Source: Gemmatimonadota bacterium (lineage in GTDB: Bacteria; Gemmatimonadota; Gemmatimonadetes; Longimicrobiales; Gaopeijiaceae). Taken from it: 63,763 bases of DNA. The translations under genes were made by a program, and so were the position numbers. Location of the stretch: assembly GCA_015664885.1 (NCBI GenBank), contig DQPL01000028.1, positions 1 to 63,763 on the forward strand, given 5' to 3'. Below the pieces are notes generated by a model that saw only the letters and a list, made by a program, of their open reading frames with translations, made no database searches and was not told the origin of the DNA. Positions 11,520 to 58,069 of the stretch are shown here, one piece after another (position 1 is the first letter of the stretch; each line of letters opens with the position of its first letter).

Positions 11520-11531
11520 CGGCATGAACAG

Positions 11532-11560: not shown

Positions 11561-11585
11561 TCGCGGCGCCACCCTGATTGGGTCG

Positions 11586-11981
11586 CTAGTTCTTCTTGGC
11601 CGTGAACGTGCCGGTCAGCTGTCCATCTAGGATGTCGATGGTGCCTGACCACACACCCTCGTCGTCGACCGTCCCGATGTAGAGGACCGAAGCCTCTCCA
11701 ACGCCCTCTAGGGACGCCATGAACGAGACCGTGACCTTGTTGCCGTCCACGGTCCCCGTCACCTCGTTCGCGCCAAGAGCCTCCGACACATAGTGGCCGG
11801 TGAGCTTCATGCCGTCTTGTTCCAGCGTGAGCTCGGGCATGGTCACGCCATTGTCCGTCGAAACTTCCAAGGTCCAGTCGCCGGTCATCATGACTTGGGC
11901 GCTGGCCTGCTGTGCGCCTGCGAACAGCAATGCAGTCGCCGCGATCAGCGCGCCTCCGATCCGGATGCTTTTGAGCCTCAT
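11586..11981 (-). CDS. Small secreted beta protein
   Basis: 131 residues. A clear signal peptide ends near AQQASAQV (about residue 28). The mature domain has repeated beta strands with Thr-Gly turns (GDWTLEVSTDNG, GTVDGNKVTVSF, GTIDILDGQLTGTFTAKKN), which looks like the small lipocalin-like or calycin-type domains common in this phylum. AGGAGG at the right distance supports the ATG. Function unknown. It may be transcribed after the VOC gene upstream, with a gap of about 50 bases. Confidence 0.6.
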   Translation of the reverse strand: MRLKSIRIGGALIAATALLFAGAQQASAQVMMTGDWTLEVSTDNGVTMPELTLEQDGMKLTGHYVSEALGANEVTGTVDGNKVTVSFMASLEGVGEASVLYIGTVDDEGVWSGTIDILDGQLTGTFTAKKN

Positions 11982-12002
11982 GGGTGCCTCCTGTGCTTTT
12001 CT

Positions 12003-12023
12003 GGTCTGGGTTGGTCTGGGTTG
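12003..12023. repeat. Two-copy 10-base tandem repeat
   Basis: GGTCTGGGTT occurs twice in a row, then GGT, in the short gap between the VOC gene and the downstream secreted protein. It may affect nothing; recorded as a visible repeat. Confidence 0.5.
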
Positions 12024-12032
12024 GTGAAAATC

Positions 12033-12833: not shown

Positions 12834-12948
12834 TTCGGGTCCTTCTCGGGGATCGAAAATTGAAGTGCGCTGAAAAAAGGCGCGCGATGCCCGCGAAGCA
12901 AGTTCCGTGACCGTGGCGGCCGCCCCCTGCAGGGCGTAGAGTGCGTTC

Positions 12949-13857
12949 ATGCTCACTCGACGAACCTTCCTCGCAGCTTCCGTGGCCGCGCCTCTGACGC
13001 GACTGGTCGATGCCCAGTCCGCCCCGCCGGGCAAAATGCTGCTCAGTATCCACCAGAACACGTCGCGGGCGGCCGGATACCGCGCTTCGCTGGAGGGCTG
13101 GGCCAGGGCCGGTATCCAGCACGTCGAGCTTAACGACAGGGTGCTCGACGGATTCCTCGAAAACGACACGTTGGCTGCCGCGAAGAGCGTGATGACCGAC
13201 CTGGGCCTGACACCGGTGTCGGGCGCCGCGGTCATGCAGGATCTCTGGATCCCGGGCCCGGCCCGTGCGGCATCGCTCGAGAGGTGGCGGCAGCGCTGCG
13301 ATCAATTCGCCGGTCTCGGACTGCGGAAGATCTATTGCCCGTCGATCACCAATCGAGAGGTCAGCGCGGAAGACTTCGCGGCCACTCCGGACTGCATCCG
13401 CGAAGTCGGGGAGATCGCCGGGCAGTACCAGCTCACAGCGATGATCGAGTTCCTGCGTACCTCGACCCACCTGGCAACGCTGAGCTCAGCGTTGCAAGTG
13501 ATTCGCGAGGCGGCGCACCCCAACGTTCGGCCCATGCTCGACTTCTTCCACTTCTGGTCGGGGCTGAGCAAGTTCGAAGACCTGGACTTGCTGGAGCCGG
13601 GCGAGCTCGCGCACGCGCACTTTCAGGATCTGCTGGCTGGACCGCGAGAGTTGATCGACAACGACTCGAGGCTGATCCCCGGCGACGGCATCGCGCCCGT
13701 GGTGCGCATCCTACGGAAGCTGGCTGAGAAGCAGTACGACGGCGCACTCTCGGTCGAGTTGTTCCGGGCTGAGTTCGTGCGCGGCGACCCGTTCGAGGTA
13801 GCCACCAACATCCGTGGAAAGTGCGAAGCCGTGATGCGCGAAGCTGGCGTGTTCTAG
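12949..13857 (+). CDS. Exported TIM-barrel isomerase/epimerase
   Basis: 302 residues with a Tat-like signal (TRRTFLAASVAAPLTRLVDAQ). The barrel carries IQHVELNDRVL, LTAMIEFLRTS, VRPMLDFFHFWSG, LAHAHFQD and GALSVELFRAEF, giving the Glu/Asp/His/Glu metal set of the xylose isomerase-like family. It is related to, but clearly distinct from, the exported barrel at 9968-10873. The start at 12949 has only a weak ribosome site (TAGAG). Divergent from the VOC gene; the 3' end overlaps the small gene at 13854 by 4 bases. Confidence 0.8.
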   Translation: MLTRRTFLAASVAAPLTRLVDAQSAPPGKMLLSIHQNTSRAAGYRASLEGWARAGIQHVELNDRVLDGFLENDTLAAAKSVMTDLGLTPVSGAAVMQDLWIPGPARAASLERWRQRCDQFAGLGLRKIYCPSITNREVSAEDFAATPDCIREVGEIAGQYQLTAMIEFLRTSTHLATLSSALQVIREAAHPNVRPMLDFFHFWSGLSKFEDLDLLEPGELAHAHFQDLLAGPRELIDNDSRLIPGDGIAPVVRILRKLAEKQYDGALSVELFRAEFVRGDPFEVATNIRGKCEAVMREAGVF

Positions 13858-31206: not shown

Positions 31207-32628
31207 CTAGCCACCCGTCGCCCCGTACCCACGCATCATAGGTCCCGTCCGGTCCATTACAGCCGTGGCATACGCTCGCTCCCCACTCAGTTCGTCGCGC
31301 ATCAGCGTCCTGAAGACGCCGCTCAGCGAGAGCATCGCCAGGAGGTTTGGGATGGCGGTGACGGCCACGGCGATGTTGGCGACCAACCACATGCGGTCCA
31401 CGTCGGCGACCCCCGCTACGGCGATGCCGGGCAGGAAATAGACCCAGCGCAGGACCCTGAAGGGGCCCTCACCCACAAGTGAGACGAAGCTCGTCTCGAA
31501 GTACACGTAGAAGCCGATCTGCGTCGACAGACAGAATGTGGCGATGGCCCCCGACACGATGAGGGCAGCGACCGATGGGGAGAACACCTCCGAGAACGCC
31601 ACCAGTAGCAGCTCGATGCCGGACTCACCGCTGGCCATCGCACCGGTGGACAGAATCGCGAGCGCCGTGATGGAGCAGATGACGATCGTATCGAAGAAGA
31701 CCTCGAAGGCGCCCCACACGCCTTGTTGGAACGGATGCTCCGTGTCGGCCGTCGCGTGCACCATGGGCGCGGTGCCCATGCCCGCCTCGTTGGAGAGCAT
31801 TCCCCGCGCCATACCCTGCTTGATGGCCTCACTCCCCGCGACACCCGCCACGCCCCCCACCCCGGCGACGGGTGAGAACGCATGTGAGAAGATCGAACCG
31901 AACACATCAGGTAGCGCCCCGGCGTTCACGATGACGACGACCAAGGCGCCGATGATGTACGCCACGGTCATGAGTGGTACCAAGCGTTCCGAAAAACGGC
32001 CAATCCGTCGAAGGACCCCGAGCACCACCAGGGCGGTGAGCACGGCCATCGCCCCAGTCACGACGTACGGGTTGATGTCATAGCTGGCGAGAAGCGCGCG
32101 CCCCACGGTGTGTGACTGGAGCATGGACGCCGCGAACACGGAGTTGATGAGCATCCCAGCGCTGAACAGCACGGCCAGAGGCGTCCACCCAAGCCCCCTG
32201 TGGATCGTCGACTGAGGGCCGCCCCGGAACTCGCCGTCGGCGCCACGCTCCCGGTAGTAGACGCCCAGGGTGATTTCCACCGTCTTGGACATCATTCCAA
32301 AGAACGCCAGCACCCACATCCAGAAGATGGCCCCCGCCCCGCCCACGGAGAGCGCGGTCGCGACGCCAGCCATGTTGCCCATCCCCACGGTCCCAGCCAG
32401 TGACGTAGCCGCCGCCTGAAAGGGCGTCAATTGCTGCCGCGCGGACCGGTCCGCGCTTGCAGCAAAACACCCCACCGTGCTCCGAAGGATGTAGCGGAAG
32501 CCAGTGAGCTGGAATACGCCCGAGGTCACGGTGAAGAAGACGGCAACCCCGGCCAGGAAGGCCATCGTCCACGGCCCCCACAGATACGAATCGATGATCG
32601 CTAGGGTCGCCAGCAGGGTGTCAGTCAT
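31207..32628 (-). CDS. AgcS-type sodium:alanine/glycine symporter
   Basis: 473 residues, about 10-11 membrane segments. Family hallmarks: TPFQAAATSLAGTVGMGNMAGVATAL in the first conserved block, FWMWVLAFFGMMSKTVEITLG, GMARGMLSNEAGMGTAPMVHATA (the NEAGMGTAP signature) and EVFFDTIVICSITALAI. The transporter should import Ala, Gly or a similar amino acid with Na+. A decayed second copy with the same upstream neighbour lies at 50684-51500. The start is supported by homology with that copy (MTDTLLATL in both); the ribosome site is weak. Confidence 0.92.
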   Translation of the reverse strand: MTDTLLATLAIIDSYLWGPWTMAFLAGVAVFFTVTSGVFQLTGFRYILRSTVGCFAASADRSARQQLTPFQAAATSLAGTVGMGNMAGVATALSVGGAGAIFWMWVLAFFGMMSKTVEITLGVYYRERGADGEFRGGPQSTIHRGLGWTPLAVLFSAGMLINSVFAASMLQSHTVGRALLASYDINPYVVTGAMAVLTALVVLGVLRRIGRFSERLVPLMTVAYIIGALVVVIVNAGALPDVFGSIFSHAFSPVAGVGGVAGVAGSEAIKQGMARGMLSNEAGMGTAPMVHATADTEHPFQQGVWGAFEVFFDTIVICSITALAILSTGAMASGESGIELLLVAFSEVFSPSVAALIVSGAIATFCLSTQIGFYVYFETSFVSLVGEGPFRVLRWVYFLPGIAVAGVADVDRMWLVANIAVAVTAIPNLLAMLSLSGVFRTLMRDELSGERAYATAVMDRTGPMMRGYGATGG

Positions 32629-44071: not shown

Positions 44072-45502
44072 ATGGACTTCAGACGAATCCCTCGGACTCT
44101 CTTGGTAGGCGCAGCCGCGGTCCTCGCGAGCCTGTTTGCGAGTGATGCCGCCGCGCAGGGAGGCGATCGACTAGCCGCCGGGGACGTGGCGACCTCCGCA
44201 GCCCCAGATGCGGTGACGTACTACGACGCCGTTCAGGGCGTGCTGCGAAGGAACTGTGTCACCTGCCATACCGAGAACCCGGTCAGCGTCGGTGGCATGA
44301 TCGCCCCCTTTGCCCTCACGACGTTTCAGGATGCGCGACGGCGGTCGTCCGCCATCGCCGGTGTCGTGAGCACCGGCTACATGCCGCCCTGGGGCGCCGC
44401 CATCCAGCACCAGGGTACGTTCAAGGACGAACGCTACCTTCCCCCGGAGGACAAGCAGATCCTGATCGATTGGGCTGAAACGGGTGCGCAGATGGGTGAC
44501 CCCTCCCCAGCGACGACAGCCGAGAGCCCGGCAGACCTCGACATCCAGGAGCCGACCGTCGCACCCGACGGAAGGGTGTGGTTGATGGGCCTGCCCGACA
44601 TGGTCGTCGGATTCGATGAGCCGCTCCTCGTTTGCGAGCAGGTCCAAGACTGGCAGCCGCAGGTGCCGCAGCGGGTGATTTCGGGAGAGCTGACGGAGCC
44701 CAGGTGGATTCGCGCTACCGAGATCAACGCCGGCCCCAAGGTGCACCATACGGTGTCAAGCCTTCTCGGCGTCGGCACACCGGGGCGCGGGCCCTTCGTC
44801 TTCCCCGAGGGCTGGGGCATCCTGATGGTGCCGGATCAGTACATGAGTATCAGCATGCACTACCACAAAGAGGTCGGCCCGGGTACCGAGATCATCGACG
44901 ACACCCGGGGGGGGATTCAGTTCTACGAGGACGGCGACCGGCTCGATCACGTCGTCGAGACCAGACTCCAGCCGTTCAGGGACTTCGTCATCCCGGCCGG
45001 GCACCCGAACTACGAGGTGCAGAATACGACTCACTTCGACGAGGACATCTACCTCCTGTCGATGGGTCCTCACGCGCACTACCGAGGCAAGGCCGTGAGG
45101 ATCGAGCTCCAGCGTCCCGACAGGCAGTTCCGTGAGACTCTGCTTTCGATACCGAACTACGACTTCAACTGGCAGTTCCAGTATGAGCTGAATGAGCCAC
45201 TGTTCATCCCGGCCGGCTCATCCATGATCACGACCTGGTGGTACGACAACTCCGCCGCCAATCCTTACAATCCGGATCCTACGGCCGAGGTGGTATACGG
45301 TCCGGCGACCACCGACGAAATGATGAACTCGCGCATTTACTTCGCGAGGACCGAACCGCTCGGGCTCGTCGCGGGCGGACCGATCCCCGCGGAGCTGGTC
45401 GAGCGGGCCCATGCGGCCGACGAGAGAGCGCGTCGCTTCGCGCGTGAGTGGGAGGACGGGAGCCAGAGCTGCGCCAAAGCAGCGGACATCGCCAGCCGGT
45501 AG
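44072..45502 (+). CDS. Secreted cytochrome c fused to a copper-monooxygenase-like domain
   Basis: 476 residues with a signal peptide (1-28, DAAAQGG). A cytochrome-c-like unit follows with CVTCH at 62-66 and YMPPWGAA as the likely Met region. From about residue 170 the chain has the two-lobed fold of peptidylglycine/dopamine monooxygenases: KVHHTVSSLL (two His of the first copper site), MSISMHYHKEVG and MGPHAHYRGKAVRIEL (His of the second). It ends NWQFQYELNEP. Such fusions occur in Gemmatimonadota, Acidobacteria and Planctomycetes with unknown substrates. The ATG at 44072 is preceded by GGAGG. A strong terminator follows at 45535. Confidence 0.8.
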   Translation: MDFRRIPRTLLVGAAAVLASLFASDAAAQGGDRLAAGDVATSAAPDAVTYYDAVQGVLRRNCVTCHTENPVSVGGMIAPFALTTFQDARRRSSAIAGVVSTGYMPPWGAAIQHQGTFKDERYLPPEDKQILIDWAETGAQMGDPSPATTAESPADLDIQEPTVAPDGRVWLMGLPDMVVGFDEPLLVCEQVQDWQPQVPQRVISGELTEPRWIRATEINAGPKVHHTVSSLLGVGTPGRGPFVFPEGWGILMVPDQYMSISMHYHKEVGPGTEIIDDTRGGIQFYEDGDRLDHVVETRLQPFRDFVIPAGHPNYEVQNTTHFDEDIYLLSMGPHAHYRGKAVRIELQRPDRQFRETLLSIPNYDFNWQFQYELNEPLFIPAGSSMITTWWYDNSAANPYNPDPTAEVVYGPATTDEMMNSRIYFARTEPLGLVAGGPIPAELVERAHAADERARRFAREWEDGSQSCAKAADIASR

Positions 45503-45570: not shown

Positions 45571-45738
45571 GGTTCACCCCCCTGACGCTACCGGTTTCGC
45601 CACGCCGCCGGATCGCGATCCGGGTCGCCCAGCGACGTCCTCGTCGCTTGATGCGCCGACCGCGCGGTTTTCTTGCTGATGACGGGCTCGCCCCCTAGGC
45701 TCCCGGGTCAGCAGGAATCACCCTTCAGCACCCAACTC

Positions 45739-46713
45739 ATGGACCGTCGATCGTTCGTCTCCGGGCTTGCCACGGTCGCGGCGTTTCCCGCTTCCAGCCT
45801 GAGCGCCCTGGCACGTACGTTTCCTGCGGCCGGAGAGGTCCATGCACTCGTGCTCGGTACCGCACAGGACGCGGGCTTCCCTCAGATCGGGTGTTATACA
45901 GACCGGTGCAACTACGGTCGCGAGTTGTGGGCCGAGGGCCGGCCCCGCTTCGTCTCGTCCATCGCGCTGATAGAGCCGGATGCCCAGAGGTTCTATCTCG
46001 TCGACGCGACGCCGGACATCACCCACCAGATCGACCTCATCGACGACGACGGCTTCCGTCGGCGCGCCGCGGAGCGACGCCCCTTTGATGGGATCTTCCT
46101 CACCCATGCGCACATAGGGCACTACTCAGGACTCGACGTCCTGGGGAACGAGGGGATCGGGATGGCGGAGACACCGCTGTTCTGCACGCCCCGCATGGCG
46201 GAGTTCATCAGTTCCAATCAGCCATGGCGCTTCCTGGTGGATCAGGGGCGACTCGTGCCCACACCGATCCCCTTCGACACCTGGCACAGACTCGACGACA
46301 ACCTCGAAGTCCAGCTCTGGAAGGTGCCGCACCGGGACGAATTCGCCGACACGGTTGGTTTCGTTTTTCGCGGCCCGAGCCGCACGCTGCTCTTCTTACC
46401 GGATATCAACGGCTGGCACCTCTGGGACAAGGACGCCGCAGAAGCCGTGGCCAGTGTGGATGTAGCACTCCTCGACGCATCGTTCTGGTCCATGGACGAG
46501 ATGCCGGGACGCTCCATGGATGATCTGCCGCATCCCCTGATCCTGCAGACGATGGACACGTTTCAGTCGGTCGTGGACGACAGGCTCGCGGAGGTGGTGC
46601 TCACGCATATCAACAATTCGAACCCTGCCCTGGACGACGGCGGTCCGCAACAAGCGGAGATCGCGCGGCGAGGCTTCACGCTCGCACGCGAAGGGATGCG
46701 CTTCGAGTTGTAA
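45739..46713 (+). CDS. PqqB-like metallo-beta-lactamase-fold hydrolase
   Basis: 324 residues with a Tat-like signal (DRRSFVSGLATVAAF). It matches the PqqB-type MBL fold: LVLGTAQDAGFPQIGC followed by a second Cys in DRCNYG, FDGIFLTHAHIGHYSGL (metal HxHxxH), LLFLPDINGW and HPLILQTMD. PqqB is cytoplasmic and proposed to hydroxylate a PQQ precursor; this copy carries an export signal and stands alone with no pqqA, C, D or E nearby, so a different role is likely. A PQQ-type propeller protein is encoded at 59829-62000. ATG 45739 starts the signal; the longer frame to 45673 adds nothing. Confidence 0.75.
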   Translation: MDRRSFVSGLATVAAFPASSLSALARTFPAAGEVHALVLGTAQDAGFPQIGCYTDRCNYGRELWAEGRPRFVSSIALIEPDAQRFYLVDATPDITHQIDLIDDDGFRRRAAERRPFDGIFLTHAHIGHYSGLDVLGNEGIGMAETPLFCTPRMAEFISSNQPWRFLVDQGRLVPTPIPFDTWHRLDDNLEVQLWKVPHRDEFADTVGFVFRGPSRTLLFLPDINGWHLWDKDAAEAVASVDVALLDASFWSMDEMPGRSMDDLPHPLILQTMDTFQSVVDDRLAEVVLTHINNSNPALDDGGPQQAEIARRGFTLAREGMRFEL

Positions 46714-46735: not shown

Positions 46736-47827
46736 TCAGTGCCGAACGACCACCTTGCCCATGAAGTCGCCGTTCATGAAGAAGTCGAACGCCTCGACCG
46801 CCTCCTCGAAGTCGAACACGCGGTCCACGATCGGGCGGATCTGGTGGCCCGAGAGGAATCGGTTCATCGCCTCGAAGTCCGCGCGCGACCCCACCTGAAA
46901 TCCGGTGACGGAGGCGTTCTTGTTGAAGAGCTGGAAGAACGATACCTGCCCGTTGAAGCCCGTGAGGCCCCCGATGAGGGATACATGGGCGCCAAAGTCC
47001 AACGCCTGCATCGCTCGCGGCAGCGTTTCCCTGCCTCCGATCTCCAGAACGTGCTTGACGCCGCGGCCTGCGGTGAGTTCCAACACCCCTTCGTGCCACT
47101 CGGGGTTGCGCCGGTAGTTCACCGTTCCGACCGCACCGAGCTCCACCGCCCGGGCGAGCTTCTCGTCGCTGGATGAGGTGATGATGGGTCGCGCCCCGGC
47201 CGCAGCCGCGAACAGAAGCCCGAAGCTCGAGACCCCTCCGGTGCCCTGCAAAAGCACGTAGTCGTTGGGTTGAAGATCCCCGTGCTTGAACAGCGCGTTA
47301 AAGGCGGTGAGCCCGGCCGTCGTGAGTGTGGCGGCCTCCTCGTACGACAGGTAGTCGGGGATGGCCACGAAGCCGTCCGCATCGGCGACAAAGCTCTCCG
47401 TGAGAACGCCAGGCCCGGGTCCACCGCGACGGTACGGATTGGCTCCCGGAGGCTGGTCCCCGTCGATCCATGCCTCGGCAAAGAAGGTCGTGACCACGCG
47501 GTCGCCGATCACGAAGCGCGTGACGCCCTCTCCGACCGCGGTGACCTCACCCGCGCCGTCGGAGAGTGGGACCTGAACGTCGTCGCACTGGCCGGCGATG
47601 CGGTAGCGGTCCCGGCCGTTGAATGAGGACGCCCGCATCCTGACCCGGATCTCCCCCAGCACAGGCGTTCGCAGTGGCACCTCTCGGACAGCGACCGTGC
47701 AGCGTTCCCCATCGGGATCCGACACATATCGCCACTCACGGACCGTCTGCGCCTGGGCCGCCGTGGCTGTTGCGAGCGAGAGCATCAGTGCGGCGAGGAT
47801 CAGCAATGTTCGTCTTCCGACCCTCAT
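46736..47827 (-). CDS. Exported MDR-type zinc-less dehydrogenase
   Basis: 363 residues. A clear signal peptide (1-25, LATATAAQAQT) precedes a medium-chain dehydrogenase/reductase: VRMRASSFNGRDRYRIAGQ, DGAGEVTAVGEGVTRFVIGDRV, LTTAGLTAFNALFKHGDL, LLQGTGGVSSFGLLFAAA (cofactor loop), then FGAHVSLIGGLTG. The usual catalytic Cys/His zinc ligands are lacking. Export is odd because NAD(P)H is not available in the periplasm. It is the third gene of the run, 1 base after the cytochrome stop, so it should be co-expressed with the flavoprotein and dihaem cytochrome. Confidence 0.8.
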   Translation of the reverse strand: MRVGRRTLLILAALMLSLATATAAQAQTVREWRYVSDPDGERCTVAVREVPLRTPVLGEIRVRMRASSFNGRDRYRIAGQCDDVQVPLSDGAGEVTAVGEGVTRFVIGDRVVTTFFAEAWIDGDQPPGANPYRRGGPGPGVLTESFVADADGFVAIPDYLSYEEAATLTTAGLTAFNALFKHGDLQPNDYVLLQGTGGVSSFGLLFAAAAGARPIITSSSDEKLARAVELGAVGTVNYRRNPEWHEGVLELTAGRGVKHVLEIGGRETLPRAMQALDFGAHVSLIGGLTGFNGQVSFFQLFNKNASVTGFQVGSRADFEAMNRFLSGHQIRPIVDRVFDFEEAVEAFDFFMNGDFMGKVVVRH

Positions 47828-47828
47828 G

Positions 47829-48584
47829 CTATCGCCCCGCTCGTATGACCACCCGGGCGAGACTCTGCGCGTCGGGCTGAAGTTCGGCATCTCCCGCCGG
47901 CATCCCGCCGAGGAGGAGCATGTAGGCAATGACATCGACATACTCCTGCTCGGTCATCGAGTCCGGGTTGTCTTCCGGCATCGTCGCCCGCGTGAATTCG
48001 AATAAGGTCGCGAGCGACCTTCCCTGCCAGACGCGGAGAAACCTCGCACGCGCCAGAGGCGGCGTCGAGCGCATATCCGGATCGTCTGGAGCGCCATTCA
48101 ATCTGTGGCCATGACACGTGCCACAAGCACCCTCGTACGCAGCCTGGCCGCGGTTCGCCTGTGCCTCGGTGAATACGCCGTCCCAGACCGATCCCATTGG
48201 CAGCGTTTCCTCGAGTCCCCCTAGCACCGCCGCTACTTCCTCGGTGGTCACATTGCTAGAGCCGTCCGCCCAGACGTTGCGAACGTAATTCACCAAAGCG
48301 GACAGTTCCTCGGCGGTCAGGCCGGGAAATGGAGGCATGCGGTCCCTGCCCTGTCGGATCGTGCGCACGACCCGCATGGGGTCCCGAAGCTGGTCACTGC
48401 CACGCAGGGCCGGAAACGTCGGCGGATCGCCGGCGCCCAAGTCCCTATGGCAAAGCGCGCAGTTCTCCTTATAGAGTCGCTGGCCCCGCTCCAAAAGGAC
48501 CGTGTCGGGTTGTTGTTGTGCGACGGCGGCCGGGGCGATGAGGCACGCGAGCCCCAGGACGCCGACCACAAGCCTCAACATCAA
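47829..48584 (-). CDS. Secreted dihaem cytochrome c
   Basis: 251 residues with a signal peptide (1-22, AAVAQQQ). Two haem-c domains: CALCH near residue 43 with PPFPGLTAEELSALVNYVR (Met region MPPF), and CGTCH near residue 154 with ATMPEDNPDSMTEQEYVDVIAYML. Each has one distal Met candidate. The upstream flavoprotein's TGA overlaps its ATG (ATGA), so electron transfer from flavoprotein to this cytochrome is likely. The downstream MDR gene starts 1 base later. Confidence 0.88.
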   Translation of the reverse strand: MMLRLVVGVLGLACLIAPAAVAQQQPDTVLLERGQRLYKENCALCHRDLGAGDPPTFPALRGSDQLRDPMRVVRTIRQGRDRMPPFPGLTAEELSALVNYVRNVWADGSSNVTTEEVAAVLGGLEETLPMGSVWDGVFTEAQANRGQAAYEGACGTCHGHRLNGAPDDPDMRSTPPLARARFLRVWQGRSLATLFEFTRATMPEDNPDSMTEQEYVDVIAYMLLLGGMPAGDAELQPDAQSLARVVIRAGR

Positions 48585-50662
48585 AGCGACGGCTCTTCGA
48601 CGGCGTGCGTCCCCGCGATGTAGCCATGCACGTGACCCTTGCCCAGGCCGTGCTTGTTGAATCCCCCCACGGCCTCACCTCCCGCATAGAGACCGGGAAT
48701 CACTTGGCCCTGCATGTCCACGACCTGCTGGCGGCCATTGACCCGCAAACCGCCGTAGGAATCGTGCCAGATCACCATGATCGAGAGCGCATAGAAGGGG
48801 CCGGTCGCGATGCGATTCATGGGGGCATCCACCTCCCGCTCGAATTCGGGGTCGGCACCCGATTCCACATAACCGTTCCAGGTGCCCACCGTGTCGGCCA
48901 GGTACTTCAGCGGCACGCGCTGAAACTCATGGCCCGCGTATATCTGCTCCGCCAAGTCCTCGATGGTATCGGCCTGGAAGAAGTAGCCGTTGTCCGACAC
49001 GTAGGGGTAGCGCAGCTCCCACCCGTTGCGATCGACCGCGTCCTGGTCGAAGACGGCCCAGAGCGGGCCCGAGTAGTAGTCGGGGGCCTCCGACCCCTCG
49101 TTCAGCGCTAGGGCGGCATGCACACCATGGTCGTAGTTGTACATCTCCCTCACCCACTCCTTGCGGCAATTGCGCCAATCGAGCGGGGTGTGATCGAGCC
49201 CCCGCCCCGGGGCGCCGCGGTCGCCAGGGTACGCGCTCGGACCGGGCCGTGCGGGCAGACGGACTTCGTTGAAGAAGCGCTTCCCGACTTGGTTCACGGC
49301 GATGAACTCTTCGAAGCCCGAGCTTCCGACACTGAACCCGGCAGACCCGCGGAAGCCGAACGTCGGGTGTCCGGGCATCATGCCGGTATACGCGTCGCGG
49401 GTACCGAGACGCGTCGAGATGTGGAACGTCGTGAAATACGAGAGATTTTGCTGCATGCCCGCCAGGTTCGCGCCGATCCTCAGGCCGGCGATGAGCGCTG
49501 ATCCGTCCTGACCTCCGGACCCCAGCAGGGCCCGACCGCTCGTCGGGAAAGCGGGCTCGCGCAGGGCCGGGTAGAACATGCTGCGGACCTCGGGGTTTCC
49601 CGCGTGACCACCACTGGCGAGGATGACGGCCTTGCGGGCCCTAATGTTCACGGTGTCCCGCCGCTCGTCGATGTTGCCGTTCTGCCAAAGGCTCTGGAGG
49701 ACCTCGCCGCTCTCAGGGTGCTGCCGTGGGGAATAGTGAGCCTTTATCCCCAGAACCCTGCCCGCAACAGGCTGCTCGCGAACGATCTCGTCGAAACGGC
49801 GGTGCAGGATGAACTGGACGCCCTTCTCGCGGGCCGAGAACTCCAGACACCGGGAGAGCGCGGCGCCGTTGGCCACGGCGTTGGGTCCGACGGAGCGGCT
49901 CGCGTTGTTCATGCGCAGGGGCGCGAACGCACTCGAACGCTCGCGATCGGCTACACCCGCGTCCTCCGCGGTGATGGTCCCCGCCTTGATGTCCGTCACG
50001 TCGCCCAGCATGAGGAAGCAGGTCGCCAAGCGCGCGCGCGACAGCCCTCCGCCGCCGTGCGTGCCCGCGACCCTCGAGAAGCGGACGTAGTTGTCGATCA
50101 GGAACTGCCGAGTCGCCGGACAATTCTCGGCCCAGGCACGCGCCAACTCCCGCTCGTTGTACCGGTAGGGGGCCTGACCCTTGGGGTCGACGACCGACCA
50201 GTCGGTGAGGTCCGTGAACAGGAGCTCGACGTCGTCATCCAGCTCCTCCGGCTCCTCAATGGGAGCGACCGTGACGAACCCCTCTCGGTCGCTCTCGCCG
50301 CTCATGTCTCTCTGCTGAACCGGGTCGCCTCCGCCGAGCGACATCCGGCCCGCACTGTGCAGCATACGGCCGCCGAGGTCGAAGTTCTGATCCACCACAA
50401 GCACGCTGGCCCCGAGGTCCACCGCGCGAATGGCTGCGGTCAGGCCCGCGCACCCGCCTCCCGCGATAACGACATCTGCCTCATAGTGCCAGACCGTTTG
50501 TTGCGTGCCACTCGCCGGGACCTGCGCTTGCGCTTCGGCTGAATCCAACAGAACCCCAGAACCCAACCCGGCAACGACGCCCGTCTTGACGAAGTCTCGC
50601 CTGTTCAGGGCCTTCTTGTTGGGCGTTGGGTCCTTCGACGGACGGTCGTCCTTCGTTGTCAT
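48581..50662 (-). CDS. Tat-exported FAD-dependent oxidoreductase (fumarate reductase/KSTD-like)
   Basis: 693 residues. Tat signal with a long n-region (NRRDFVKTGVVAGLGSGVLL). FAD-binding start YEADVVIAGGGCAGLTAAIRAVDLG and a C-terminal half NRIATGPFYALSIMVIWHDSYGG, then GLRVNGRQQVVDMQGQVIPG, LYAGGEAVGGFNKHGLGKGH. This is the FAD-binding-2 fold shared by soluble fumarate reductases, urocanate reductases and 3-ketosteroid dehydrogenases. No haem domain of its own, but the next gene encodes a dihaem cytochrome. GGGAGGA sits 8 bases before the start. Its upstream region is the end of the AgcS remnant, from which its promoter must derive. Confidence 0.88.
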   Translation of the reverse strand: MTTKDDRPSKDPTPNKKALNRRDFVKTGVVAGLGSGVLLDSAEAQAQVPASGTQQTVWHYEADVVIAGGGCAGLTAAIRAVDLGASVLVVDQNFDLGGRMLHSAGRMSLGGGDPVQQRDMSGESDREGFVTVAPIEEPEELDDDVELLFTDLTDWSVVDPKGQAPYRYNERELARAWAENCPATRQFLIDNYVRFSRVAGTHGGGGLSRARLATCFLMLGDVTDIKAGTITAEDAGVADRERSSAFAPLRMNNASRSVGPNAVANGAALSRCLEFSAREKGVQFILHRRFDEIVREQPVAGRVLGIKAHYSPRQHPESGEVLQSLWQNGNIDERRDTVNIRARKAVILASGGHAGNPEVRSMFYPALREPAFPTSGRALLGSGGQDGSALIAGLRIGANLAGMQQNLSYFTTFHISTRLGTRDAYTGMMPGHPTFGFRGSAGFSVGSSGFEEFIAVNQVGKRFFNEVRLPARPGPSAYPGDRGAPGRGLDHTPLDWRNCRKEWVREMYNYDHGVHAALALNEGSEAPDYYSGPLWAVFDQDAVDRNGWELRYPYVSDNGYFFQADTIEDLAEQIYAGHEFQRVPLKYLADTVGTWNGYVESGADPEFEREVDAPMNRIATGPFYALSIMVIWHDSYGGLRVNGRQQVVDMQGQVIPGLYAGGEAVGGFNKHGLGKGHVHGYIAGTHAVEEPSL

Positions 50663-50683: not shown

Positions 50684-51206
50684 TTAGCCGCCACGGCAAT
50701 GTTAGCGACCAACCACATGCGGTCCACATCAGCGACCCCCGCCATAGCGATGCCGGGCAGGAAATAGACCCACCGTAGAATCCTGAAGGGACGCTCACTC
50801 ACAAGTGAGACAAAGCTCGTCTCGAAGTACACGTAGGAGCCGATCTGCGTCGACAAACAAGACGTGGCGATGGCCCCCGACACGATGAGGGCGTCGACCG
50901 ACGGAGAGCCATACCCTGCTTGATGGCCTCACTCACCGCGACGCCCGCCATGTTGCCCATGCCCACGGTCCCAGCCAGTGACGTAGCCGCCGCCTGAAAG
51001 GGCGTCATCTGCTGTCGCTCGGCCCGGTCCCCGCTCGCGGCCAAGCGCCCCAAGGTGCTCCGCCAGATGTAGCAGACACCGGTGAGCTGGAAGACACCCG
51101 AGGTCAGGGTGAAGAAGACGGCGACCCCGGCCAGCAAGGCCATCGTCCACGGCCCCCGTGGATGCGCATCGATGATCTCCAGGGTCGCCAGCAGGGTGTC
51201 GGTCAT
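50684..51206 (-). pseudogene. Second, internally deleted AgcS symporter copy
   Basis: The N-terminal part (51206 leftward) is homologous to the symporter at 31207-32628 up to GTVGMGNMAGVA. It then jumps to SEAIKQGMA, skipping about 190 residues; the join falls in a shared GTCGCG-type stretch, so microhomology deletion is likely. A second jump leads, in another frame, to SGAIATSCLSTQIGSYVYFE, RPFRILRWVYFLPGIAMAGV and MWLVANIAVA, where the copy stops at 50684 beside the flavoprotein start. It cannot encode a transporter. Confidence 0.85.
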
Positions 51207-51283: not shown

Positions 51284-51500
51284 TCACGCACCCATGAGTA
51301 CGAGGAGGATCGACAGCGTCACCACAGATGCGGCCGAGGCGACCACCACGGTCCCGACCGCCACATCAGATGCCGTCTCGTAGCGGGCACCGAACAGGTA
51401 GACCATCGCGCCGCTCGGCATTCCCGCCATCACGACCACCACCGGAGCCCACAGAGCACCCAGACCGAGGATCGAGACCGCGATCACCCAGGCCGAGAAT
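51284..51500 (-). pseudogene. Second AEC-family transporter C-terminal remnant
   Basis: Reads AWVIAVSILGLGALWAPVVV, AGMPSGAMVYLFGARYETAS and ASAASVVTLSILLVLMG, close to the copy at 32707-32910 (nearly 90% identical bases over this stretch by eye). The gap to the following AgcS start is 77 bases here and 78 in the other copy. The remainder of the gene is replaced by other sequence that runs into the PadR gene end. Confidence 0.75.
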
Positions 51501-51548: not shown

Positions 51549-51884
51549 CTATCCCTCCGCCCCGAGCAAGCGCCCCATGGCAACGGATCGCCGCTGCCAC
51601 TGCCCGGTCGCGGCCTCCAAGTGTCGGAGGCCCGCTCGAGTCAGCGTGTAGTACTTCGCGCGGCGAGAATTCTCGGTCTGTCTCCACTCAGAATCCAGCC
51701 ACCCCCCTCGTTCCAATCGCTTTAGGCAGGTGAGTAACGAGCCGGGGTTCACCTTGAACACACCCTGAGAGACTTGCTCGATTCTTTTAGCGATCCCGTA
51801 CCCATGTAACGGCGACAGGCTGAGGGTCTTCAGGATCAGCAGGTCGAGGGTGCCCTGGATGACGTCGGTATTGCCTTGGTCCAT
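51549..51884 (-). CDS. PadR-family transcriptional regulator
   Basis: 111 residues, winged helix: IQGTLDLLILKTLSLSPLHG, YGIAKRIEQVSQGVFKVNPG, LLTCLKRLERGGWLDSEW, RAKYYTLTRAGLRHLE. This is the short PadR-s2 form with no C-terminal domain. In this phylum it usually sits next to ABC-permease genes; here none remain nearby, which fits the local rearrangement. Start at 51884 (MDQGNTDV) with AAGG upstream. Target unknown. Confidence 0.85.
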   Translation of the reverse strand: MDQGNTDVIQGTLDLLILKTLSLSPLHGYGIAKRIEQVSQGVFKVNPGSLLTCLKRLERGGWLDSEWRQTENSRRAKYYTLTRAGLRHLEAATGQWQRRSVAMGRLLGAEG

Positions 51885-52073: not shown

Positions 52074-53633
52074 ATGAAGCGAAGAAAGTTTGTTCGAACT
52101 GTGATCATGGGCGGTGCCGGCGCTGCCGCGGTAGGCCTGCCGTTTGAAAGAGCCTATTCGCAAGCACCGATGCGGCAGGCGGCTGTTCGCACCAATCGTC
52201 GACACATCGTCAGGGGACCGGCGCACCTGCTCCGGGACGGTCACGAATTCCAGCTTCCATCTCCGACAGAGTACAAAGACGTCGTCATTGTCGGCGCCGG
52301 GCCGAATGCTCTGGTGGCCGCATACCACCTTCCAGATGCAGAACTGGTGTGTTTGGAGAAGGAGCCGAGAAGCGGTGGCAACGCCCAGCGCTCGAAGTGG
52401 CGGGGCATCGACTTCACGGAAGGTGCGGCGTATACGGGCACAGGTTCCCGACTGGCGGACTTCATCGATGCAGAATTCGGCATTGCACCAACACCCCTTC
52501 CCAGCAGCAATGTCGGCTACATCGTTGGCAACAAGGTCATTCCAGACTTTTATCAGACTGGATTCGACGAACTTCCCTTTGACGAAGCCACGCGGGCCGA
52601 ATTCTACCGGTTCCGGGATGCGTGCGAAGAAGCGGAGAGCCGATTGGGTGAGGGGCGGTCCTCTCTTTTCCGCGGTGACCCGATTTCCCATCGGTCGGTG
52701 CGTGAGGAAGTCCTGGCACTCGAGAAGCTGAGCTTCGAGCAGTGGCTCAACGACAACCGGTTTGCCGAGGAAGTGATCCAGTGGTGTGACTCATATTGCC
52801 CCACCGAGACCGGCGGTTATCCCAGAAACATGTCTGCGCTCGCAGGACTTTCGATGGCAGGCCTGGGCGACTACGAAGGCTATGGGGCGTTTCCAGGCGG
52901 ACTGGCGCCGATGGCGGAGGCACTGGCCGCTGGTGTCCGAGCTCACGGTGCGAACCGAATTAGAACGGGGGCGTTCGTGGTGGCAGTGGCCAACACCGTC
53001 GACGGCAGGAACGTCGACGTCACGTATTTGCAGGCGAACAAGCTGCATACGATACGATGCAAGACATGTATCTGGGGCGGCCAAAAACACATAGCAGCGT
53101 ACGTCGTTACAGATATGCCGGAAGAGCAGAAAGCAGCCATCGGCAACATGAGTTACAACGATATCTCGGTCATGAACATGTGTTACGACCGCAGGATCTA
53201 TGACGGGGCGTTCATCACCTGGATGAATGAAGGACCGATTAACAATATCTTGTCCGCGGACTGGGTTCTCAACGGCGGGAGCGTCGATCCCGATTCTCCG
53301 CAGGTGCTCACGTGCGATTGGACGAACCGACCGGAGGACCGGGCGTCGCTACTGGACGATGACTGGGTTGTCGAGCAGTGCCAGCGGTCGGCGCGGCGAC
53401 TCGAAGAGATCTTCCCGGGCAGCATCGATCATCTCGTGGAAATCAGGCTGCCTTTGCGAGCCCACTCGTGGGTTGTCAGATCACCCGGATACGTGACCGA
53501 AATTCTGCCTGTGATCGCAAACGATGTCGGGCGCGTCGTAATCACGCGAGCGAATCACGGCTCATTCACCGAGGCATACAGTGCCGGCCTGGAGAATGCC
53601 GCCACGGCAAGGGACTGGCTCTCCGTCAGCTGA
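52074..53633 (+). CDS. Tat-exported FAD-dependent oxidoreductase, lower GC
   Basis: 519 residues. Tat-like signal (KRRKFVRTVIMGGAGAAAVG). Dinucleotide-binding start KDVVIVGAGPNALVAAYHL, then LVCLEKEPRSGGNAQRSKWRG, typical of amine-oxidase-like flavoproteins; YGAFPGGLAPMAEALAAGV is the mid-chain FAD contact. Substrate unknown. Base use differs from neighbours: the two 60-base lines starting at 53101 and 53161 are each 50% G+C, whereas the rest of the window is near two thirds. That suggests acquisition from elsewhere. It converges on the next gene with an 8-base overlap. No strong ribosome site. Confidence 0.8.
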   Translation: MKRRKFVRTVIMGGAGAAAVGLPFERAYSQAPMRQAAVRTNRRHIVRGPAHLLRDGHEFQLPSPTEYKDVVIVGAGPNALVAAYHLPDAELVCLEKEPRSGGNAQRSKWRGIDFTEGAAYTGTGSRLADFIDAEFGIAPTPLPSSNVGYIVGNKVIPDFYQTGFDELPFDEATRAEFYRFRDACEEAESRLGEGRSSLFRGDPISHRSVREEVLALEKLSFEQWLNDNRFAEEVIQWCDSYCPTETGGYPRNMSALAGLSMAGLGDYEGYGAFPGGLAPMAEALAAGVRAHGANRIRTGAFVVAVANTVDGRNVDVTYLQANKLHTIRCKTCIWGGQKHIAAYVVTDMPEEQKAAIGNMSYNDISVMNMCYDRRIYDGAFITWMNEGPINNILSADWVLNGGSVDPDSPQVLTCDWTNRPEDRASLLDDDWVVEQCQRSARRLEEIFPGSIDHLVEIRLPLRAHSWVVRSPGYVTEILPVIANDVGRVVITRANHGSFTEAYSAGLENAATARDWLSVS

Positions 53634-56058
53634 GCAGGCGCTGGTTGTCGGGATCGTAGAGCGGCTGCTGCACGACCCGCGCCGCCCGGCGCTCGCCCAG
53701 GATCTCCACCACGAGGTCCGTGCCGGGCTCGAGATACCGGACCGGCAGGTAGGCCAGAACGATCGTCTTCTCCACGGTATGCCCGTATCCGCCGGAGGCG
53801 ACGTAGCCGATCCTCTCGCGGCCGGCAAGAATCGGCTCGTAGCCATGAGGATCGGCGTCGTCCGCGTCGACGACGATGCAGGCGAGCCCACGCTCTAGCC
53901 CGCGCTCGCGTTGACGGAGTAGTGCGTCGCGGCCTATGAAGTCGCCCTTGTCGAAATTGACGAAGCGGCCCATCCCAGCCTCGAGAGGGGTGTAGTCGGC
54001 CGACATGTCGGAGCCCCAGAGACGGTAGGCCTTCTCCAGCCGCATGGAGTCGAGTGCTCGGTAGCCGAAGTCGATGATCCCGTACTGCCGGCCGGCTTCC
54101 ATCAAGAGATCGTATAGATACGTCTGATGCTCGCTGGCATGGTGAAGCTCGTAGCCGAGCTCGCCGACGTAGGAGACTCGGAGCACCCGCACGGGCGCCG
54201 TACCTGCACGCAGCTCGCGGCAGCGAAAGAAAGGGAAGGCGCTTCGCGAGCAGTCGGTGTCGGTAATCGCCTGGAGCACGTCGCGCGAGCGCGGACCTGC
54301 GAGTGTGAGTACCCCATCCCGGTCCGTGACGTTGGCGAGTTCGACGCTGTCGTCCTGCGGCAGGTGGCGCGCCAGCCATTCGAAGTCGTGGCACTCTGTC
54401 GCGGCGGCGGACACCACATAAAAGTGCTCGTCCGCGAGTCTGGTCACGGTCACGTCGCACTCGATGCCGCCCTTCGGCGTGCACATCTGCGTTAGCGACA
54501 TTCGGCCGACCGAGCGCGGAAGTGCGTTTGCGCAGAGACGGTCGAGAAACCCCTCTGCGCCCGGCCCCGCGACTTCATACTTGGCAAAACTCGTTTGATC
54601 GAGCACGCCGACAGACGAGCGAACCGCGGAGCACTCCTTCCCGACAGCAGCGTGCCAGTTTCCGCGATGGAAGGAGTACTCGTCTCGTGCCGGGCCTTCG
54701 TGGCAGAACCACAGCGGGCGCTCCCACGCGAATCGGGCGCCGAACACGGCTCCCGTGGCGAGCAGTCGATCATGGAGCGGGCTCGTCTTCAGCGGCCGCC
54801 CGGCGGGGAGCTCCTCTTCGGGATAATGGATGGCGTACTCGCGTTCATACACTTCGCAGGCGCGTTCCGCCACGTACTCGACCGAGCTGGCGTAGTCGCC
54901 GAAGCGACGCGCATCCAGCTCCCACATGTTGTCACTGGGCTGCCCATGCACAATCCATTCCGCGGCATACTTCCCCGCGCCGCCACCGAAGACGATGCCG
55001 AAAATGCTGAAGCCGGCCAGGACGTGGAAGTCCTGGAGACCGGGTACCGGCCCCATCAGACATTTGCCATCAGGCGTATAGCCGTCGGGCCCGTTGATGA
55101 TGCTCTTGATGCCCACGTTTGCGAAGGCGGGTACGCGGCGAGCGGCAGCCGCGAGCACTGATTCGAGCCGATCGAGGTCGGGCGGGAGCAGACTACTGTG
55201 GAAGTCCTCGGGGATCCCCTCCAGCGCCCACGGTTTCGGATTGCGTTCGAAAGGGCCGACGAGCAGCCCGCCTCCCTCCTCGCGAACGTAGAAGGAGGCC
55301 GATGCGTCCCGAAGGACCGGCAGCTCCAGCTCGAGTGAGCTGAGTTCTTCGACTTGCTCCGTGACCAAGAACTGGTGCTCGAGCGGCACGATCGGGAGCT
55401 CGACCCCGACCATGCGGCCGATTTGCCTCGCCCACTGACCAGCGGCGTTGACGACGATTTCGGCGCGGATCTCCCCCTTCGAGGTGGTGACCACCCAACC
55501 GCTGCTGGATCGCTCGATCGCGGTCACGGTCGTGTGCACGAGGATCTTCGCCCCCCTGGCGCGAGCTCCCTTCGCAAGCGCTTGAGTCACGTCGCTAGGA
55601 TCGACGTGCCCATCTGTCGGGAGGTAGGCTGCGCCGACGACCCCATCCAGATCGAGCAGCGGAAATAGCTCTAGAGCTCGCTCCGGAGATACGATCTCGA
55701 AGGGAACCCCGAGCAAGTCGGCGATGCTCTTCCGGTAGTGAAAGTCATCGAGGCGATCCTGAGATTCCGCGAGGCGCACACTCCCGCAGCGGTGGAAGTC
55801 GACCGTCCGGCCGGTCTCGGCCTCCAGGGACCCGTGCAGGTCGAGGCTGTACTGGAGCAGCTTCATCAAGTTGTAGCTGGGGATGAACTGCGTGCAGAGT
55901 CCGGCAGCGTGCCAGGTCGAGCCGCTCGTGAGCTCGTCCTTCTCCACCAGGACGACATCGTTCCAACCCATGCGCGTCAGGTGATAGAGCAGGCTGCAGC
56001 CCGCCACTCCCCCCCCGATGATGACAACGCGCGCTTCGCTTGGAACCGTCGCGCTCAC
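53626..56058 (-). CDS. Dimethylglycine/sarcosine dehydrogenase-like flavoprotein (FAD + GcvT)
   Basis: 810 residues, no signal peptide. Domain 1 (about 1-400) is a DAO-type FAD module: VVIIGGGVAGCSLLYHLTRMG, then TSGSTWHAAGLC with the His-Ala-Ala-Gly loop where FAD attaches in dimethylglycine dehydrogenase. Domain 2 (about 430-810) is the aminomethyltransferase (GcvT) fold: VGVLDQTSFAKYEVAGPGAE, RVSYVGELGYELH, FGYRALDSMRLEKAYRLWG. Together they demethylate N-methyl glycine derivatives and pass the one-carbon unit to tetrahydrofolate. Betaine-type transport is encoded at 5624-7135, far away. It is downstream of the next flavoprotein gene by 4 bases. Confidence 0.88.
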   Translation of the reverse strand: MSATVPSEARVVIIGGGVAGCSLLYHLTRMGWNDVVLVEKDELTSGSTWHAAGLCTQFIPSYNLMKLLQYSLDLHGSLEAETGRTVDFHRCGSVRLAESQDRLDDFHYRKSIADLLGVPFEIVSPERALELFPLLDLDGVVGAAYLPTDGHVDPSDVTQALAKGARARGAKILVHTTVTAIERSSSGWVVTTSKGEIRAEIVVNAAGQWARQIGRMVGVELPIVPLEHQFLVTEQVEELSSLELELPVLRDASASFYVREEGGGLLVGPFERNPKPWALEGIPEDFHSSLLPPDLDRLESVLAAAARRVPAFANVGIKSIINGPDGYTPDGKCLMGPVPGLQDFHVLAGFSIFGIVFGGGAGKYAAEWIVHGQPSDNMWELDARRFGDYASSVEYVAERACEVYEREYAIHYPEEELPAGRPLKTSPLHDRLLATGAVFGARFAWERPLWFCHEGPARDEYSFHRGNWHAAVGKECSAVRSSVGVLDQTSFAKYEVAGPGAEGFLDRLCANALPRSVGRMSLTQMCTPKGGIECDVTVTRLADEHFYVVSAAATECHDFEWLARHLPQDDSVELANVTDRDGVLTLAGPRSRDVLQAITDTDCSRSAFPFFRCRELRAGTAPVRVLRVSYVGELGYELHHASEHQTYLYDLLMEAGRQYGIIDFGYRALDSMRLEKAYRLWGSDMSADYTPLEAGMGRFVNFDKGDFIGRDALLRQRERGLERGLACIVVDADDADPHGYEPILAGRERIGYVASGGYGHTVEKTIVLAYLPVRYLEPGTDLVVEILGERRAARVVQQPLYDPDNQRLLS

Positions 56059-56062
56059 GGCC

Positions 56063-58069
56063 TTATCTCGATGGTATCAGGTCGCTACCGGAGTTCGTGT
56101 GGCGGGCGCGGCTTCGAACAACGAGTTGCTCGCGGACCGCTCGGTGTGCCTCGTCGATGGCGGAGTCCGTGTGCGTCGAGGCTGCGGCGTCGGAGTTGGC
56201 GATGGAAATCCGACCGAATCGCCGGCTCCCGACTACGCAGGGCCGATCGTCGGGGGCGAACAGCGCCCACTCGATCGGGTCGTTCAAGGTGTCGTAGCTA
56301 TACGCGTAGCCGTGCGGCCAGCGATTGACCGTGATCGCTTCGATGTCCCGGGCCGGGTCGAAGCCTCCACCCTCCAAGGTTCGACCGAGCTGGTCCCGGA
56401 TGTTGCGCTCGAAGGTCTCGAAGCTCGCGTCCAGCAGATCCTGCCGCCCCATGCGATGCTGCTCCTTCTTCGGGTGTCCCGGAGCGCAAGGCACCCTGGT
56501 CATGTGCAGAATCATCGGGTCGTCAGGCGACGTGGAGGGCTGGTAGTCACCGAATTGCACGGACCGGCCCAGATTGACTCCGGTGTGGTACATGCCCGGG
56601 GAGGTCGCCCTCGAGATGCCCAAGTTGGTGAAGGCCGTCCAATTGCGGAGCAGCACGTTCGTGTAGACGATCGGCATCTTGACGCCATACATGAGCGCCG
56701 CGCTCTGCTCATCGGACATCTCGGGGACGAGGTGCGGGATGACCCCGTTGTAACAGGCCATCACACAATGATCCGCCCGCACTTTCTCGGCCCTGCCATC
56801 GCGCACGTAGGTGATCTCGACCTCCCGGGCCGCCTCTGGGTCGCCCAGGTGCCGGACTGATACGACCGTGCTGTTGAGCCGAACTCGAGCGTCGGAGCCA
56901 TCGCGGTCGATCCGGTCGTACGCGAGCCGCGAGGTTATAGAGTCGTCCAGCGAATGCCCGGGAAGCGCGTCGGGAATCATGGCGCGAACCAGGAGTCGCG
57001 CCACCGTCGCGTTCCCGTCCGGAAAGTAGAGGTCGTCTCCGTGGTTCCACTCGCTTTCGCGACCGTGTTGTCCGCCCCCGATGTGGGTGAGCGGGCTCAC
57101 GCGCGGCAGGGGCTCGAGGTTCATCCCCTGAAAGCCGGGGTAGCCCTGGGCCCATCCATAGAGTGCCGGATAGCCGTCGATACCTACGCAGAAGCTGCCC
57201 TTCGGGCGGTCATCGAAGAACGCGATCACATCGGGGTGCACCTTGGCCAGATCGAGCAGGAAGTCCCGATAGCTGATCCGCGCTAGCCGCTCCTTCTTGT
57301 CCACATCGGACAGTCCGGACATGTAGTCTGGGTTCGCAGCGTCATCGTAGAGCCGCGCGATGTCCCCGCGTACGTCTGCAGAGAGCGGGGTCTGCGCGAG
57401 CCAATCGGCCCATCCGCGGCTCCCCGATCCCCCTCGTCCCATTACGAGCCGATCCTCGCCGAACACCTCTTTCGCGAAGAACGTGGCGTTGCCAAGGCCC
57501 AGCGAGCGGTAGAATCCCATGCCTGCGTTGCTGGTGGCCGTCGCACTTGCTATGTCGATACCGATTGCGGCGAGCATCGTCCTGGAGACGGTACTGTATT
57601 GCCCCACGGACTCGATGTACGACGTGCCGCCGTTCAGCATCAGCGTGCGGCCTCGGTAGGTCATCTCGTTGCGCTTGGCGTGGCCGCCGAAATCGTCGTG
57701 GTTGTCGAGCACGAGCACACGTGCGCCCCGGCCAGCCGACGTCAGGAAGAAGTAGGCCGCTGAGAGCCCACTCAGCCCCCCTCCGACCACCACGCAGTCG
57801 TAGTGCTCACGGGTGTCGGCGACATCGGCCCAGGCGCCCCCATCACGGAGCGCGTGCGCGACCTCGAACGAACCGGCGTGACTTCCGCGCATTCCAGTTT
57901 GGGCCGGTGGATAGTACTCCTGCGGCCTGTACCCATCGGGGCTCCCGAACGCAGACAGCCAGTCAGGTGTGATGAGTGCGCCCGTGACGGCGACCCCCAT
58001 GCCATTGACGAAGTCGCGTCGGGTGATACCGCGGTGCATCCCGAGATCACGATCCTGGCTCTTTGACAC
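56063..58069 (-). CDS. Tat-exported NAD(P)/FAD oxidoreductase (spermidine dehydrogenase-like)
   Basis: 668 residues. The GTG start at 58069 is supported by GGAGGG eight bases upstream; the frame extends to 58381 with no support. Signal: TRRDFVNGMGVAVTGALI. FAD module starts YDCVVVGGGLSGLSAAYFFL, then VLVLDNHDDFGGHAKRNEM, and the chain has FPDGNATVARLLVRAMIP and GVNLGRSVQFGDYQPST. The order and FGGHAKRNE fit the spermidine-dehydrogenase-like flavoprotein group. Substrate is uncertain. Its stop is 4 bases before the start of the demethylase gene, so they form an operon. Confidence 0.85.
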   Translation of the reverse strand: MSKSQDRDLGMHRGITRRDFVNGMGVAVTGALITPDWLSAFGSPDGYRPQEYYPPAQTGMRGSHAGSFEVAHALRDGGAWADVADTREHYDCVVVGGGLSGLSAAYFFLTSAGRGARVLVLDNHDDFGGHAKRNEMTYRGRTLMLNGGTSYIESVGQYSTVSRTMLAAIGIDIASATATSNAGMGFYRSLGLGNATFFAKEVFGEDRLVMGRGGSGSRGWADWLAQTPLSADVRGDIARLYDDAANPDYMSGLSDVDKKERLARISYRDFLLDLAKVHPDVIAFFDDRPKGSFCVGIDGYPALYGWAQGYPGFQGMNLEPLPRVSPLTHIGGGQHGRESEWNHGDDLYFPDGNATVARLLVRAMIPDALPGHSLDDSITSRLAYDRIDRDGSDARVRLNSTVVSVRHLGDPEAAREVEITYVRDGRAEKVRADHCVMACYNGVIPHLVPEMSDEQSAALMYGVKMPIVYTNVLLRNWTAFTNLGISRATSPGMYHTGVNLGRSVQFGDYQPSTSPDDPMILHMTRVPCAPGHPKKEQHRMGRQDLLDASFETFERNIRDQLGRTLEGGGFDPARDIEAITVNRWPHGYAYSYDTLNDPIEWALFAPDDRPCVVGSRRFGRISIANSDAAASTHTDSAIDEAHRAVREQLVVRSRARHTNSGSDLIPSR

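Follow-up and report, generated by a model that had tools for sequence, protein, structure and literature searches.

The window analysed here, 63,763 nucleotides of contig DQPL01000028.1 (assembly GCA_015664885.1), comes from a 3.96 Mb metagenome-assembled genome (MAG) of a Gemmatimonadota bacterium. It contains three adjacent genes that encode a flavin adenine dinucleotide (FAD) flavoprotein exported by the twin-arginine translocation (Tat) pathway, a c-type cytochrome and a medium-chain dehydrogenase/reductase (MDR) with a signal peptide that is probably of the general secretory (Sec) type. The flavoprotein and cytochrome probably form a periplasmic oxidoreductase, most likely a substrate dehydrogenase, and the MDR would represent a separate exported lineage that lies behind the pair in this genome only. 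Both the flavoprotein gene and the cytochrome gene are conserved, so the locus is not a chance arrangement of open reading frames. Above cut-off NCBIfam assigned none of the three proteins. The gene order given by the first-pass annotation, with a single base before the MDR, is confirmed on the minus strand. However, the flavoprotein/cytochrome junction that it described as an ATGA overlap reads TGATG, where the stop codon TGA and the start codon ATG share one A (a 1-base overlap). The TAG stop codon of the cytochrome is followed by one base and then by the ATG of the MDR, the N-terminus of which is MRVGRRTLLILAALMLSLATATAAQAQ. An alternative in-frame ATG for the MDR is present upstream at 47890, and with the start at 47827 the signal peptide comes directly. 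A consensus scan of the three-gene region found no promoter-like site, an outcome that proves nothing.

Table 1. Coordinates of the three genes and their principal motifs within the window.
Feature	Position	Strand	Description
Tat-exported FAD flavoprotein	48581..50662	minus	693 amino acids, PF00890; Fcc3/UrdA/KstD/cyclohexanone-dehydrogenase fold superfamily
Twin-arginine motif of flavoprotein, NRRDFVK	50585..50605	minus	both arginines (R21, R22) conserved in all 43 aligned orthologues
Dihaem class I c-type cytochrome	47829..48581	minus	250 amino acids, Sec-type signal peptide, PF13442/PF00034
Cytochrome haem motif 1, CALCH	48447..48461	minus	read from the sequence
Cytochrome haem motif 2, CGTCH	48111..48125	minus	domain retained throughout the family
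Exported MDR	46736..47827	minus	363 amino acids, PF08240/PF00107, no zinc ligands, NADP-type Rossmann motif
MDR signal peptide, residues 1-26	47750..47827	minus	likely cleavage A-Q-A/Q; N-terminal extension in 15/15 homologues
MDR Cys43	47699..47701	minus	one of two cysteines in the mature protein
MDR Cys81	47585..47587	minus	candidate disulfide partner of Cys43
MDR nucleotide-binding motif, GTGGVS	47228..47245	minus	kept in all exported homologues

The flavoprotein belongs to a widely distributed family. A scan of one genome collection yielded orthologues at 52 loci (52–90% identity), and two further loci from the order of the window bring the total to 54 other loci. The hosts include Acidobacteriota (mainly Vicinamibacterales), Gemmatimonadota, Alpha- and Gammaproteobacteria, Myxococcota and Armatimonadota, and within the order itself the gene occurs in 7 of 146 genomes. 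Because the phyla are interleaved in the protein tree, where the window and a same-family relative (G074) fall within a clade of Acidobacteriota and Gammaproteobacteria, the sequences suggest that the family has spread by horizontal transfer. The Tat arginines are kept in all 43 aligned full-length orthologues. The flavoprotein scores 112.3 bits against PF00890 (FAD_binding_2; gathering threshold 20.4 bits, E 4e-32), and it lies under the curated cut-off of the flavocytochrome c subfamily TIGR01813 (137.5 versus 285.45 bits). Two MAG records that carry the module (L050 and L057) are titled Bordetella parapertussis, a label that probably reflects faulty binning or naming.

Conserved partners were tabulated by direct tblastn at 55 loci, 53 of which were counted on the basis of at least 1.2 kb of downstream sequence or of a partner found there; neighbouring genes were called by codon usage and then clustered. 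The completeness of MAG contigs limits calls of absence, and downstream DNA is present for each counted locus. A matching cytochrome c gene lies behind the flavoprotein gene at 44 of the 53 testable loci, which bears out the earlier proposal of an exported redox pair. A second partner, absent from the earlier description of the locus, is a three-domain β-sandwich protein of ∼190–360 residues that is encoded between the flavoprotein and the cytochrome and found beside the former at 39 testable loci. Both partners are present at 35 loci, the cytochrome alone at nine (including the window), the β-sandwich protein alone at four and neither at five. In the G074 relative the flavoprotein/cytochrome overlap is kept and a convergent gene occupies the place of the MDR. 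The cytochrome of the window has two CXXCH motifs, while short gammaproteobacterial and other forms have one and retain the second domain. The conserved module of flavoprotein, β-sandwich protein and cytochrome, which the first-pass annotation missed, is a more interesting result than the trio of genes. A divergent LysR gene precedes the module in Alphaproteobacteria (loci L038, L039, L040, L042-L045, L059 and L062), and most of these loci have a gene for a small secreted protein of ∼70-110 residues after it (clusters c5 and c6).

The β-sandwich protein lacks a signal peptide. Over its first 40 residues, peak hydropathy has a median of 0.95, versus 2.14 for the cytochrome, and the three members that exceed 1.6 are accounted for by a mature β-strand. 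The AlphaFold model is all-β and confident, with a predicted local distance difference test (pLDDT) score of 89. Carboxypeptidase D (1qmu) has a transthyretin-like domain that matches the C-terminal domain of the protein (Z 13.7, root-mean-square deviation (rmsd) 1.2, 77 residues aligned), and the remainder resembles macroglobulin (MG)- and immunoglobulin-like domains (Z about 10). In Pfam there is a weak CarboxypepD_reg match alone, and NCBIfam gives nothing meaningful. No β-sandwich gene lies beside the flavoprotein of the window, and a paralogous flavoprotein–β-sandwich pair is present elsewhere in the genome. The second flavoprotein of this pair is also of the Tat type (544 amino acids; 42% identity over the best segment) and its gene is directly followed by that of the β-sandwich paralogue (G000:C32, 7496–10086). 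Since the second flavoprotein has a β-sandwich paralogue of its own, the pairing is probably older than the cytochrome-linked family.

The model of the flavoprotein has a pLDDT of 77 and is unreliable at residues 474–513 and in the signal region. It matches the urocanate reductase UrdA (6t85, Z 33.4, rmsd 8.7, 422 residues aligned), the Fcc3 fumarate reductases (Z 32-33), the 3-ketosteroid dehydrogenases 4at0 (Z 32.6) and 8joj (Z 32.4) and cyclohexanone dehydrogenase (8am6, Z 31.9), all of which share the FAD and cap domain fold. The position of Fcc3 His504 is occupied by His633 in 42 of 43 orthologues, within a well-aligned C-terminal stretch, and that of His505 by Asp634 in all 43, so that the pair is HisAsp here rather than HisHis; the group also differs from the present family in the motif GGVHGANRLGG (GGFNKHGLGK here) and in that the cytochrome is a separate protein here. 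The carboxylate-clamp arginine (R544 in Fcc3, R501 in Mrd, the flavoprotein of the Mrd/Mcc system) aligns with Gly672 in all 43 orthologues, inside an invariant HGxG motif, and the position of the proton-donor arginine (Fcc3 R402, Mrd R353) is mostly Pro470, in a weakly aligned stretch of 5.8 bits. The roles of these two arginines in Mrd and fumarate reductase have been described (PMC4427408). Because the clamp position is an invariant glycine, the substrate would be one without a clamped carboxylate, and a fumarate-type dicarboxylate enzyme is disfavoured.

A close parallel in architecture is Mrd/Mcc of Geobacter sulfurreducens AM-1, in which a Tat flavoprotein of the same superfamily (RRDFLK) is encoded next to a Sec-exported c-type cytochrome, the two genes having been exchanged together between lineages (PMC4427408). 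However, Mcc is a tetrahaem protein and the system reduces acrylates, whereas the present cytochromes carry one or two class I haems; Mrd has 526 residues compared with 693, and in the present family the β-sandwich protein is a usual third partner. The pair could be read as a periplasmic terminal reductase of the methacrylate or urocanate reductase kind, with the cytochrome donating electrons and an unsaturated organic compound accepting them. UrdA and Fcc3 are among its best neighbours in both sequence and fold, and Mrd/Mcc shares its gene order and its division between Tat and Sec. Nevertheless, this reading is rather unlikely given the glycine that replaces the clamp arginine of fumarate reductase and Mrd, a cytochrome that is of the class I mono- or dihaem rather than the tetrahaem type, and the many hosts that are marine or of aerobic-type taxa such as Roseobacteraceae.

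A Tat flavoprotein with an adjacent cytochrome c has been used to predict cytochrome-using dehydrogenases of the amine oxidoreductase superfamily, with kinetic confirmation (PMC12224317). Both signposts are found here, in the form of a Tat signal on the flavoprotein and an adjoining c-type cytochrome gene. Mrd/Mcc has the same Tat and Sec layout and functions as a reductase (PMC4427408). NicA2, Pnao and CycN likewise combine a Tat flavoprotein with an adjacent Sec cytochrome c, but have the amine oxidoreductase fold PF01593 instead of PF00890, and a β-sandwich partner is not described in the consulted part of PMC12224317. On balance, our analysis favours oxidation over reduction as quite probably the reaction of the flavoprotein. 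Neighbouring genes (α/β hydrolases, a PF04199 cyclase, P450, acyl-CoA dehydrogenase, TonB receptors and LysR) were considered as pointers to the substrate, and none recurs widely enough. 

The MDR is of the zinc-free type: PF08240 and PF00107 are above threshold, GTGGVS and TSSSDEK are present and the alignment reveals no Cys or His zinc ligands. We presume that it belongs to the MDR7 branch; of the solved structures, 9vey and 3uog are nearest to it. In the order sample, 10 further genomes encode homologues with at least 50% identity, and one gammaproteobacterium does so as well. An N-terminal extension of 20–45 residues, with a basic start, a hydrophobic core and an Ala-Gln end, is present in all 15 examined homologues at this level (the window included), so the signal peptide reported earlier is indeed conserved in orthologues. 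In contrast, the four cytoplasmic homologues all lack the extension and start at the domain itself, with peak hydropathy of 0.85–1.34 compared with 1.6–2.8 for the exported proteins. Exactly two positions, Cys43 and Cys81, carry cysteine throughout the window's clade (eight sequences) and nowhere outside it, neither in the other exported clade nor in the cytoplasmic homologues. Their co-conservation in this clade alone suggests a Cys43–Cys81 disulfide. The nicotinamide adenine dinucleotide phosphate (NADP)-type Rossmann motif is intact.

It is improbable that the MDR is instead not exported, its hydrophobic stretch being a start-site artefact or membrane anchor and the enzyme working in the cytoplasm with ordinary NADP(H). 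Such a reading would suit the intact Rossmann and NADP motifs and the sister clade, in which the mature domain begins precisely at an ATG. Against it, all 15 homologues, which come from two clades and include one from a gammaproteobacterium, keep an extension with a charged n-region, an h-region and an Ala-Gln cut site; two cysteines are co-conserved only in the exported clade of the window, and the window has no start codon at the domain boundary. For the sister clade itself, a cytoplasmic product is possible. Sec export is likelier than Tat export as judged from the signal sequences; Tat was rejected, as the twin arginine at residues 5-6 of the window protein is not found in orthologues and the h-region is strongly hydrophobic. 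The glucose-fructose oxidoreductase of Zymomonas, a Gfo/Idh/MocA protein, is a precedent for an exported pyridine-nucleotide-type oxidoreductase, but it is of another family and is exported by Tat after folding (PMC4628093), whereas no twin arginine is conserved across the MDR clade, and its export looks to be by Sec.

Could the three proteins nevertheless form one system, the MDR acting before or after the flavoprotein on a shared substrate or in complex with it? The genes share a strand and meet in a 1-base overlap and a 1-base gap, a spacing that suggests co-translation, and export would place the MDR in the same compartment. Yet the MDR is found at none of the 54 other flavoprotein loci, its orthologues sit in other neighbourhoods, and in three genomes with both families (G098, G063 and G124) the genes are on separate contigs. 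A single system is therefore a poor fit and quite unlikely, and the earlier proposal to that effect does not hold, the trio being separated in relatives. The paradox of an exported MDR that was raised with it is real as a property of an MDR family and not as one of the flavoprotein system; by sequence, the exported MDR is a real family of its own. Its place behind the flavoprotein–cytochrome pair rests on one assembly.

Our best reading is a periplasmic flavoprotein–cytochrome oxidoreductase built like Mrd/Mcc without the clamp arginine, behind which local rearrangement would have placed the MDR. Several observations weigh against it. Reductases (fumarate, urocanate) and dehydrogenases (ketosteroid, cyclohexanone) tie in Z-score as fold matches. 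R472, conserved in 40 of 43 orthologues, lies two residues from the proton-donor arginine position within the 5.8-bit stretch, so that this catalytic arginine may be present. The five testable loci with neither partner mean that the cytochrome may be exchangeable. Finally, the MDR resembles one transcription unit with the pair, and a local functional link is possible.

We propose that the flavoprotein would fold with FAD in the cytoplasm and exit via Tat, and that the cytochrome would exit via Sec and gain its haems outside. The FAD would take a hydride from a small substrate, probably cyclic or carbonyl-activated, and the flavoprotein would pass electrons singly to the cytochrome, from which they would reach a terminal oxidase. 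The β-sandwich protein of most relatives is probably a co-exported or maturation subunit, which the copy in the window would have lost or dispensed with. There are parallels in FAD glucose dehydrogenase, which has a gamma hitchhiker and a multihaem subunit (PMC6719666), and PaoABC (PMC4273604), exported redox enzymes with a small partner and a cytochrome, in which signal-less subunits can be carried through Tat by a signal-bearing partner. However, in glucose dehydrogenase the Tat signal is on a small helical subunit (PMC6719666), whereas here it is on the catalytic subunit, the small one is all-β and the flavoprotein is not GMC-type. The MDR would have become the last gene of the transcription unit in this genome only, and probably holds its nucleotide bound and acts on a substrate of its own.

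The region upstream of the flavoprotein looks rearranged, because a sodium:alanine symporter remnant and a truncated transporter fragment adjoin it. The remnant (50689-51206, minus strand) lies directly upstream and has an internal deletion: relative to the intact copy elsewhere in the window (31207-32628), residues 1-95 (77% identical) are joined to residues 350-422 (90%). Beside it are the membrane-transporter fragment at 51284-51487 and the gene for a PadR regulator at 51549-51884. Also near the pair, 52074-53633 (plus strand) encodes a protein of the amine-oxidase fold that starts with the twin-arginine sequence RRKFV and has no cytochrome gene of its own beside it. A DAO-GcvT fusion and a Tat NAD_binding_8 flavoprotein, 84% and 86% identical respectively, are encoded near the flavoprotein–cytochrome pair both in the window (53626-58039) and at L013 in a MAG labelled Acidobacteria (8928-13379), an arrangement that points to the transfer of a larger oxidation island. 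At 45673-46713 (plus strand) lies a PqqB-like metallo-β-lactamase protein (125 bits against a cut-off of 245) with an RRSFV-containing N-terminal extension, possibly an exported PqqB homologue. Families c7 (CXXCH and a Cu2_monoox_C-like domain) and c20 (no Pfam family) are expanded and occur, often paired, at 44072-45502 (plus strand) and at L084, L090 and L102, in the last of which a c7/c20 gene pair is divergent from the second flavoprotein; they adjoin the exported MDR at several loci, sometimes directly upstream of it. With ∼10-30 matches to each family per genome (split matches counted apart), no functional link between the MDR and the heme/Cu-monooxygenase-like c7 or c20 was drawn.

A literature search, covering sources other than subscription journals, found no publication on the flavoprotein module or on exported MDRs. 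Two novelties are put forward together, as a combination that we regard as possible rather than probable: a cross-phylum periplasmic module of Tat flavoprotein, signal-less MG/transthyretin-like β-sandwich protein and class I cytochrome c, whose catalytic subunit would carry the β-sandwich protein through Tat and have it as a docking subunit, and a Sec-exported MDR lineage that would retain its nucleotide, contain a structural disulfide and both fold and work outside the cytoplasm. The flavoprotein family adds a widespread, previously unnamed lineage to the Mrd/NicA2-like exported flavoprotein–cytochrome enzymes, and the β-sandwich is a new partner protein whose signal-less export is directly testable. 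Exported MDRs with intact NADP motifs provide a test case for nicotinamide enzymes outside the cytoplasm, a setting presumed to lack free NAD(P).

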